Below are positions 32,238 to 64,000 of a stretch of DNA of 64,000 bases, one piece after another (the first letter of the stretch is position 1; each line of letters starts with the position of its first letter). A program made the position numbers and the translations under genes. The DNA is taken from contig CP082844.1 of the NCBI GenBank assembly GCA_019930625.1, forward strand, positions 2,728,001-2,792,000. The letters are read 5' to 3'. Source of the DNA: Nocardia asteroides. GTDB lineage: Bacteria; Actinomycetota; Actinomycetes; Mycobacteriales; Mycobacteriaceae. The notes beneath the pieces are model-generated. The model was not told where the DNA came from, ran no database searches, and saw only the letters and a list, made by a program, of their open reading frames with translations.

Positions 32238-35200
32238 TTGGACCGGCTGGATTTCGGCGGAAACGGCGAAACTGGTGGCGAACGGGCACACGCGGGTTCC
32301 GGGGTAGAACCCGGGTTGTCCGGCGCTTTCCCGTTGTCTCCCGCTCAGCGGGGTATCTGGTACGCGCAGCATGTCGACCCGCAGGTGCCGGTCACAATCG
32401 CGCAGTACGTCGACCTGCACGGCGACCTGGATCTGGATAGTCTCGAACGCGCGATCATCCAGGCCTCACACGAACTGGGTTCGCTCTTCTTGCGCATCAC
32501 CGAGCGCGATGGTGAACCATTGCAGTTCGTCGACAGCAGCATCGCCGAGGCCCGTCAGCTCGAGTATGTCGACCTCCGTGGCGCCGGTGATCCGGACGCG
32601 GCTGCGCTGGCATGGATGCGCGCGGAGTACAGCCATCCGCTGGACCTGACCGCCGACCGTCTGATCAAGACCGCCGCGCTGCGCCTGGCCGACGACCGCT
32701 GGTACTGGTATTCGCGGGCGCATCACATCGCGATCGACGGCTTCGGCTCGATGACATACGTGAACCGGATCGCCGAGCTGTACACGGCCTATGTCAACGC
32801 CACCGAACCCGCTCCATCCAAAGCGACCGACCTGCGCACGCTCTACGAGCAGGAGATCGCCTACCGCGAAAGCTCCCGCTTCGTCACCGACAAGGAGTAC
32901 TGGGCGCAACGTGTGAAAGGGCTGGAGGGAGGCACCAGCCTTACGGGCCGTTCCGCGCCGCCTGCCGCGATCAACGGCGTCGTGAGCGCCGCCCTGTCGG
33001 ACGAGCAGAACGTCCAGCTGGATGCGGCCGTCGCACGGTACGATTCCTCGCCCGCCGGTCTGTTGCTCGCGGGCTTCGCCGCGTACTTGGCGCAGTGGAA
33101 CGGCGTCGAGGACGTCATCCTCAGCCTGCCGGTGACCGCGCGCACCACCGCTGCCATGCGCCGCTCAGGCGGCGTCTCGTCGAACATCGTGCCGCTGCGG
33201 CTGCACGTGGGCCACGGCACGACAGTGTCCGAGCTGCTCAAGCAGGTGCAGGTCGAGGTCTCCGGCGCACTGCGCCACCAGCGCTACCGGCACGAGGACA
33301 TCCGCCGTGACGCGGCCGGTGACGGTGTGGTGACCACGGAGTTCTTCGGACCGTGGGTCAATATCATGCTGTTCCACAACGAGCTGGTGATGGGCCCGAT
33401 GGTCGGCCGGCTCAGTGTGCTGTCCACCGGCAGCATCGAGGACCTGGGCGTCAACTTCTACCAGTCGGTCGCGGGCACCCGCTCGCACATCGACTTCGAG
33501 ACCAACCCCAACCTCTACACCGAGGCCGAGGCGCGCCGCCACCACAGCCGCTTCCTCGAGTTCTTCGACCGCTTCCTCGCCGCAGGCGTGGACGACACGG
33601 TGTGGGACCTGCCGGTCGCCACCGCCGACGAACGCGACCGCACGCTGCTGGAGTGGAACGACTCCGAGCAGGACGTCCCGGATACCACGCTCGCGGCGCT
33701 GCTGGACGCGCAGATGCCGCTGACCCCGGACAACATCGCGCTCGACTTCGAGGGCGCGACGCTGACCTACGCGGAGTTCGACGAGCGGGTCAACCGGCTG
33801 GCCCGTTTCCTGATCGCCGACGGCGTCGGCCCGGAATCGCTGGTCGCGCTGGGCATGCGCCGCTCACTGGAGCTGGTGATCGGCATGCACGCGGTGCTGA
33901 AAGCCGGTGGCGCCTACGTGCCGATCGATCCGGATCACCCGGCCGAGCGCACCGCCTACATCCTCGACAGCGCCGCGCCGGTGTGCGTGCTGACGCTGTC
34001 GGCCGACGAGTTGGAGCTGCCGGAGTCGGTGCGCCGGGTGGAGATCGACACCCTGGACACCTCGGCGTACTCGCCCGCCCTGGTCACCGACGCCGACCGC
34101 CTCGCGCCGCTGCGCCCGGACAACACCGCCTACGTCATCTACACCTCGGGATCGACCGGCCGCCCGAAGGGCGTGGCGGTCACCCACCGCGCGATCGTCA
34201 ACCAGCAGCTGTGGATGCTCGACGAGTACCGGCTGACCGCGGCGGACGTGTACCTGCAGAAGACCGCGACCACGTTCGACGTGTCGCTGTGGGGCTACTT
34301 CCTGCCGCTGCTGGTGGGCGCGAAACTGGTCATCGCGTCGCCGGACGGGCACCGCGACCCGCTGTACGTGGCGGAGATGATCTCCCGGCACGGGGTCACC
34401 GTGACCGACTTCGTCCCGTCCATGCTCACCGTGTTCGTCGCGCACGCCACCCGGGCCCAATGCGCCACGCTGCGCGCGGTCTTCGTGATCGGCGAGGCGC
34501 TGCCGCCGGAGACTGCCGCGAAATTCAGAGAGATCACCGCTGCGCTCGATGGTCGCTCCGCAGGCTCCGCTCCGGCGGGCCTGCACAACCTGTACGGCCC
34601 CACCGAGGCCGCGGTCTCGGTGACCTACTGGGAGGCCACGGCCGCCGACACGGTGACCGTGCCGATCGGCATCCCGGAGTGGAACGTTCAGGTCTACGTG
34701 CTGGATTCGCGGCTGCGTCCGGCCGCGATCGGCGCGCCCGGCGAGCTGTACCTCGGCGGACGTCAGCTCGCCCGCGGCTACCGAGGCCGTCCCGACCTGA
34801 CGTCGGACCGCTTCGTCGCCAACCCGCTGTCGAACGACGGCGAGCGGATGTACCGCACCGGCGACCTGGTGCGGTGGAACGAAGCGGGCACGCTGGAATA
34901 CATCGGCCGCACCGACTTCCAGGTCAAGTTCCGCGGCCAGCGCATCGAGCTGGGGGAGATCGAGACCGATCTGCTCGCCCATCCCGCGGTCAGCCAGGCC
35001 GTGGTGCTGGTCGTCGACACGGCGACCGGTCAGCAGCTGGTGGCCTACGTCGTCCCGGCTCCCGGCCACACCGTGGACCCGGTGGAGCTGACCAGGTTCG
35101 CCGCCGAGAAGCTGCCCAGCTACATGGTGCCCGCCTCGATCATGGTGCTGGACGCCTTCCCACTCAACACCAGCGGCAAGCTGGACCGCAAGGCCCTGCC

Positions 35201-64000: not shown

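Follow-up and report, generated by a model that had tools for sequence, protein, structure and literature searches.

The locus studied here raises a simple question: where does the peptide go when it reaches the end of a giant nonribosomal peptide synthetase (NRPS) that carries no release domain? The window, i.e., the whole stretch of 64,000 nucleotides that was analysed, covers positions 2,728,001-2,792,000 of a 7.36-Mb contig of our Nocardia genome (G000; the other G-numbers are handles of compared genomes, and g6 denotes a non-Nocardia genus). The ORF list gives a single frame at 32166-63998 (10,611 aa) that is still open at the window end, in agreement with a preliminary description of this DNA, which had reported one uninterrupted frame of more than 10,500 residues and proposed to extend it to the gene end. 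Extended into the next chromosome stretch, the frame stays intact up to a TAG stop at window-equivalent position 76307, and the joined sequence of this gene, called NRPS1 here, holds no runs of N. Counted from its putative start, a TTG at 32238 (a GAGG lies six bases 5' of it), NRPS1 comprises 14,689 aa; from the first TTG it would have 14,713 aa. A sequencing slip in the frame is unlikely, because 20 other Nocardia loci, selected for long frames out of 118 genomes, have a single open NRPS1 frame each (12,330-18,118 aa); the frame of G043 measures 14,582 aa stop-to-stop.

The features of the window are as follows, with modules placed by HMM and code reading and identical tracts by the end offset of each run.

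30910-31812, + strand, cobM (precorrin-4 C11-methyltransferase), next gene upstream, NCBIfam match above cut-off
32238-64000, + strand, NRPS1 gene, window part of the ORF frame with putative TTG start; the whole gene runs to 76307
32325-33581, + strand, N-terminal condensation (C) domain, motif HHIAIDG, starter-like by position (HMM, motif)
33582-35513, + strand, A1-T1, code DVWDFILVS
35514-38804, + strand, module 2, C-A-T, code DFWNVGMVH (Thr)
36951-38261, + strand, 437-codon tract in A2, identical to module 5
38805-42026, + strand, module 3, C-A-T, code DVWHFSLVD (Ser)
42027-45242, + strand, module 4, C-A-T, code DVWHFSLVE (Ser-like)
45243-48515, + strand, module 5, C-A-T, Thr
48516-53231, + strand, module 6, C-A-T-E, code DVWSFALVH, D-configured
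49959-51491, + strand, 511-codon tract in A6, identical to module 8
53232-56384, + strand, module 7, C-A-T, Ser
56385-59591, + strand, module 8, C-A-T, code DVWSFALVH
59592-62948, + strand, module 9, C-A-T, Ser, with a 72-bp tandem repeat in its A domain
62949-64000, + strand, first part of the C domain of module 10; the rest of the gene (modules 10-12, terminal C domain, A-domain stub) lies beyond the window, up to 76307

For the gene upstream of NRPS1, an RsmI assignment from a Pfam match was rejected in favour of cobM. A cobM relative lies within 8 kb upstream of NRPS1 in 19 of 26 loci, and two of the other seven start at a contig end. Downstream follow genes for Uma2, an anthrone-oxygenase-like protein and TetR. 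No NRPS gene directly flanks NRPS1 in our genome, the nearest genes on both sides being non-NRPS. The window also encodes a 345-aa protein (28810-29847) that narrowly passes the Pfam cut-off for a PI3/PI4-kinase domain. Two MbtH-family matches were found in the genome, one of which (G000:C1:2716118-2716273, about 12 kb before the window) adjoins none of the NRPS regions fetched.

According to HMMs built on its own domains, NRPS1 consists of a first C domain, 12 A-T pairs with 11 linking C domains, and a terminal C domain followed by the stub, i.e., 12 modules with 13 C domains, first and last included, and two E domains after modules 6 and 12. Nine full modules and part of the tenth C domain lie inside the window, and the domain HMMs bear out the preliminary count. 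A thioesterase, already noted as absent from the window, was placed nowhere in the whole frame by a TE search; the frame ends in C domain and stub. The terminal C domain retains an intact HHILLDG motif. For the N-terminal C domain, starter-like by position, lipid initiation is probable. A9 was reported as two pieces in the HMM scan. It carries a perfect two-copy tandem repeat of 72 bp (61764-61909), with 24 additional residues between the A4 and A5 regions.

Adenylation codes were read at what we take to be the GrsA code positions, with presumed code meanings, and were anchored on motifs, partly by eye. The automatic code reader misplaces letters in Thr domains (HSF...) and returns odd fifth and sixth letters in some Ser domains, where the reading by eye was used. 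Codes 1-9 yield X-Thr-Ser-Ser-Thr-(D)Y-Ser-Y-Ser, the very order first proposed, and are followed beyond the window by Z-Z-(D)W, with DLWHLILVS at positions 10 and 11 and DPLISGAII, then E, at position 12; X, Y, Z and W stand for the codes of the six domains left without an assigned residue. The high share of Ser or Thr that had been pointed out, six of nine positions, holds for the window modules but not for the whole gene, where it amounts to six of 12 (four Ser, the Ser-like one included, and two Thr).

Two A domains of the gene share long identical tracts with others in it. Modules 2 and 5 share a run of 437 consecutive DNA-identical codons and modules 6 and 8 one of 511, and the other four module pairs compared have identical runs of at most 15 codons. 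In the nearest relatives by the stub trees (see below), G080, G061 and G104, position 2 reads DVWSLALVH and position 6 DALFVGGIM. From the identical runs together with these differing codes, we conclude that A5 was most likely copied into A2, and A8 into A6, recently and in our own strain, which would have altered the predicted peptide at two residues. The identical tracts could also stem from an assembly error.

The gene family itself is already in print. In the available text of Komaki et al. (2014, PMC4035055), a Ser-rich NRPS cluster #35 with homologues of nfa50330 is reported from seven of seven Nocardia strains, of which five have 12 modules and two a partial version; the available text of Zoropogui et al. 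(2013, PMC3751702) describes NOCYR_4800 of N. cyriacigeorgica GUH-2, 43,689 bp with twelve modules. NRPS1 resembles both as a single 12-module gene with a Ser-rich prediction, common in Nocardia, and the window gene fits the #35 family by layout. The preliminary remark that no described Nocardia peptide with this order was known concerns the product; as a gene, the NRPS is already described. No product name for #35 or NOCYR_4800 was found in these texts. Ser/Thr-rich predictions are, in the portion of Ceniceros et al. (2017, PMC5550956) at hand, common for Rhodococcus NRPSs and may be unreliable.

The terminal C domain of NRPS1 is followed by the first part of an A domain only, a stub that lacks the ATP loop (P-loop) and everything past about the A5 region. 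The last 273 residues of NRPS1 find a match in 114 of 118 Nocardia genomes (our own included, E 1e-30): in 105 genomes the identity is 52-100%, nine more match weakly, with E between 1e-31 and 1e-34, and four show no match. A draw of 301 genomes of the family revealed 33 with a stub match at E 1e-36. Eleven of these genomes are from outside Nocardia; five of the eleven were fetched, as were three of nine with weaker stub matches. In all 26 fetched loci the stub is the very end of the frame, with the frame stop at the match or within 150 bases of it. The P-loop is missing in 31 of 31 stubs and, by eye, also in 36 aligned rows. The stub has dN/dS values of 0.19-0.58, below 1 in seven of seven comparisons, and the adjoining terminal C domain 0.15-0.41. 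These ratios place the stub under purifying selection that is weaker than on the C domain but still clear. The structure model of the stub has high confidence scores (pLDDT 91, pTM 0.87), the 50 best-listed fold matches of the model are all NRPS or related adenylation domains, and profile comparison places it near A domains, too. The net charge ranges from -13 to -37 in 31 stubs; since ordinary A-domain pieces of NRPS1 have -12 to -20, the acidity appears only partly special. Shorter frames carry the stub in G071 (7,764 aa), G052 (3,284 aa) and G020 (5,316 aa; 1, 1 and 5 contigs, respectively), where NRPS1 may be divided. NRPS1 as a pseudogene or frameshift was rejected on stub conservation, open frames in relatives and dN/dS below 1.

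What may lie behind such an end is seen in related bacteria. In nine of nine fetched loci that combine an NRPS1-type stub with an NRPS gene at most 3.3 kb downstream (G176, G132, G161, G387, G315 and G302 from other genera; G053, G114 and G069 from Nocardia), the downstream gene starts with A-T. It lies 0.1-3.3 kb behind NRPS1 on the same strand, and one module, C-stub end plus A-T start, is probably common to the two proteins. Coordinates suggest the same arrangement in five more g6 genomes, and in G158 and G246, both from other genera, the next NRPS gene after a stub-ended giant also starts with A-T. The g6 genomes and G302 were considered as counter-examples, with an acceptor of class 2 (see below) and no stub at E 1e-36, and were rejected as such: weak stub matches lie just upstream, and three of three fetched cases carry a C-stub-ended NRPS directly before the class-2 acceptor.

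In G132 and G161 three proteins stand in a row, the first ending in C-stub, the second running from A-T to C-stub, and the third from A-T to a TE-like tail; G387, G315 (g6) and G302 show the series of C-stub and A-T with 116-170 bases between donor stop and acceptor frame. A PF00756 esterase gene separates NRPS1 from the acceptor in G053, with a look-alike gene in G114, whereas G176 has 3.2 kb with other frames at this place and G069 a 1.5-kb gap. The third protein of G176 is unusual and small (1279 aa). Downstream of NRPS1, G053 encodes a protein of 3175 aa and G114 one of 3131 aa, both with a reductase-like piece with TGATGFLG at their end, and some lines of this type may release an aldehyde or alcohol.

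In g6, NRPS1 is split in two proteins, a part of 7.3 kaa that starts with A and an upstream frame that ends in C without stub. The G387/G315 codes read Ser, DVWSLALVH, Ser, DLWHLILVS, DLWHLILVS, DPLISGGII(E) and, across the protein boundary, DVLL..., Thr. With a few letters differing, these are the codes of modules 7-12 of the window gene followed by those of a 2525-aa protein encoded elsewhere in our own genome (see below). In G315, DVLLVAGIL and Thr are followed across the next boundary by DALFVGGIM, DLWGYILVS and a further protein of 4618 aa; G387 is arranged alike, with DVLLSTGVL and Thr. The last four NRPS1 C domains of G387, G315, G132 and G161 have window-gene C10-C13 as best matches, in order, and nine of 13 C domains of G176, the last one included, are cognate to the window gene, with C11/C12 out of order. 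Most early C domains depart from this order, and C-domain best matches place the second protein of the series, NRPS2, unclearly. By sequence, NRPS1 is orthologous across genera. Its 3' end resembles a border between subunits that falls within a module, with C domain and A-stub facing an A-T-first protein. The absence of a docking-type break noted earlier is thus true inside the frame, but apparently not at this end; the 12-residue predicted order is probably a fragment of a longer peptide, and a mass series calculated from NRPS1 alone would be incomplete.

Donor ends and acceptor starts both fall into classes. A stub tree separates NRPS1-type (18 rows) from NRPS2-type stubs (13 rows) by one branch (95/87) that occurs in 95% of bootstrap trees; 11 giants of an earlier, wider tree (G032, G105, G113, G037, G047, G040, G111, G110, G061, G080, G246) were left out of it. 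The tree of A-first starts, built without short, cut or very divergent proteins, e.g., G053_3204, G053_5623, G176_1279, G069_1855 and G114_2995, holds a class 2 (94/96) and a class 3 (98/95); in the earlier tree the first three of these proteins fell in the expected classes and the last two in neither. An NRPS1-type stub precedes a class-2 start in nine of nine loci, and an NRPS2-type stub precedes a class-3 start in eight of the nine loci with rows in the A-first tree. The exception is G302 (G302_4103), with a class-2-type start behind an NRPS2-type stub, class 3 by position. Since the giant of G158, a non-Nocardia genome, has an NRPS2-type stub and then class 3, the split between the end classes is probably older than Nocardia.

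In our own genome, ten NRPS regions were surveyed, which contain nearly all C-domain matches. Three proteins in them end in C-stub, the window gene product and proteins of 2525 and 2391 aa, and six start with A-T and have related tails when compared by eye (2525, 2391, 4100, 5594, 3043 and 5181 aa), of which the last four carry thioesterases. The motif of the Arg-rich tails was missed in four of 34 proteins. The 2391-aa protein (G000:C1:5082604-5089776, minus strand), A-T-first and C-stub-ended, has no other NRPS frame in the 20 kb around it. The proteins of 2525, 4100 and 5594 aa form a locus at 0.96-1.0 Mb, whose first gene (2525 aa) ends in C-stub and whose next gene starts with A-T. Their codes are DVLLVAGIL and Thr (2525 aa); DALFVGGIM, DVWDFILVS, DLWHLILVS and Thr (4100 aa); and DALFVGGIM, DVWDFILVS, DLWHLILVS, DALFVGGIM (E) and DIWHFAWVV (5594 aa). 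The neighbours, a nitronate monooxygenase, M23, PF00756, NAD_binding_4/Epimerase and ECH by family, correspond to the genes that define GCF6 in the available text of Mannle et al. (2020): nitropropane dioxygenase, metallopeptidase, esterase, epimerase and enoyl-CoA dehydratase. The locus likewise resembles cluster #4 of Komaki et al. (nfa7170-7200), for which two thioesterases, present in our locus too, are noted in the text at hand, and we infer that cluster #4 equals GCF6. In these works it is treated as an independent cluster, or as two; here it would be the second half of the NRPS1 line.

The class-2 protein of the cluster #4 kind lies 1.80 Mb from NRPS1 in our genome. Over 15 closed or near-closed Nocardia chromosomes without an adjacent acceptor (our own and 14 others, with both ends on a single large contig that was taken as circular) the distance is 1.45-2.07 Mb; that this protein opens a cluster #4 was read from its domains in G000, G043 and G079. 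The distant class-2 proteins measure 2,433-2,562 aa, with one of 3150 aa in G050. G104 has an additional A-first match of 4788 aa at 0.24 Mb from NRPS1, and several genomes have A-first frames of this kind, about 4,700 aa long. Among the 118 Nocardia genomes, 104 combine the stub with a strong class-2 match (E at most 1.3e-211) and 12 have neither (E 1e-177 to 1e-187); the two discordant ones are G013 (stub only, 330 contigs) and G054 (acceptor only, 1,340 contigs). However, in a cobM tree all 12 genomes without both fall in one clade, together with G050, which has both. The co-occurrence therefore appears to reflect one or two events and is weak as independent evidence.

We consider it probable that clusters #35 and #4 each encode one half of a single assembly line, with a hand-over in trans. 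This reading builds on what the sequences directly show: domain order, the conserved stub, NRPS1 orthology, adjacency elsewhere and matching end classes. Several observations speak against it: the co-occurrence of stub and acceptor comes down to one or two events, C-domain matches place NRPS2 unclearly, NRPS1 is itself divided in g6, G302 departs from the class pattern, the third protein of G176 is unusual, G104 has a nearer A-first match, and the tail motif is not found in every protein. Because related bacteria keep both halves side by side, a hand-over to the distant enzymes is the most likely course, and with the halves 1.45-2.07 Mb apart in most Nocardia looked at closely, it would have to take place in trans. 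NRPS1 would open a longer line as its first subunit, probably with a fatty acid as starter, and would assemble a dodecapeptide on its twelve carriers. Its last C domain, without a partner module in its own protein, would find the acceptor A-T at the opening of another protein. The stub, having lost ATP loop and later catalytic parts, may serve as scaffold or docking piece, with docking between the acidic stub and the Arg-rich, basic acceptor tail. NRPS2 would be the protein encoded just downstream in related genera; in most Nocardia looked at closely, NRPS2 and a thioesterase-bearing NRPS3 would be those of cluster #4 (GCF6). The peptide would thus pass in trans from NRPS1 to the A-T of a class-2 acceptor and be released by the thioesterase of the last subunit, with 18-19 residues (12 + 2 + 4 or 5) by the cluster #4 route, or 12 + 3 or 12 + 5 residues via the 3043-aa or 5181-aa protein.

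More tentatively, one trunk may have several branches. NRPS1 would then feed up to four class-2 acceptors in one cell and give lipopeptides with a common head and different tails, the 2525-aa and 2391-aa acceptors each passing on to the 4100-aa or 5594-aa protein and the 3043-aa and 5181-aa proteins acting as other acceptors, all through a single docking pair in which a dead adenylation domain meets an Arg-rich tail. We regard this as conceivable but doubtful.

Other fates of the dodecapeptide have to be weighed. Fungal terminal C domains release their product as macrolactone or amide, and the terminal C domain of NRPS1 could do the same, the stub only propping it up. The frame without thioesterase, the intact HHILLDG motif, a stub predicted to fold well and the available Ser/Thr hydroxyls are consistent with this; yet the gene within 3.3 kb downstream starts with A-T in all nine fetched loci, and the same kind of C-stub end precedes an A-T-first gene within cluster #4. 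Self-release is, on this evidence, quite unlikely. A megasynthase in decay, its last module truncated by mutation and left with no functional ending, would account for an A domain without ATP loop and all that follows the A5 region, but hardly for a stub kept in 105 of 118 Nocardia genomes and in other genera, for frames that are open in the NRPS1 loci fetched, or for dN/dS below 1 in every comparison, and we consider it highly improbable.

The line may also have been cut when its halves separated in most Nocardia. NRPS1 would then act alone, with hydrolysis or a separate thioesterase at its end, and cluster #4 would start its own peptide; indeed, A-T-first proteins may simply begin their own peptides, which counts against a hand-over in trans. 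The distance of the halves in 15 of 15 chromosomes lacking an adjacent acceptor, the regulator and accessory genes that flank cluster #4 on its own, and discrete TE-family frames elsewhere agree with such a cut. It is made unlikely by the purifying selection on the stub and by the joint retention or absence of stub and class-2 acceptors, though the absences concern about one clade.

A paper linking clusters #35 and #4 was not found in the open-licence literature searched, nor was a description of the C-stub end or split module of the #35 family in the available parts of it; the descriptions of cluster #35 and NOCYR_4800 at hand mention neither these nor a connection with any other locus. Consecutive NRPS subunits can be paired by end segments such as COM and beta-hairpin docking domains. 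In contrast, the C-terminal piece of NRPS1 is what remains of an A domain, about 270 residues that are predicted to fold, and the cut falls between C and A. Rhodochelin is a siderophore whose NRPS pathway has genes at more than one locus. The same is reported for nocobactin in the text available (PMC7413640). Both are siderophores, whereas NRPS1 would be a case of one module common to two distant megasynthase genes. New here are the ending in C-stub, a probable module split over two proteins and the proposed union of #35 and #4 as a multi-locus NRPS pathway; gene family and Ser-rich prediction were known.

If the two clusters are indeed halves of one line, two common orphan NRPS clusters of Nocardia would be one pathway. 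This would explain the missing release domain in one of them and the lack of a visible acyl start in the other, and product searches from either cluster alone would target a wrong mass. The boundary would offer a natural split point between C and A, and NRPS proteins could be linked through its compact docking pair. For Nocardia, it would mean that an assembly line has been kept intact though its genes now lie almost two megabases apart.
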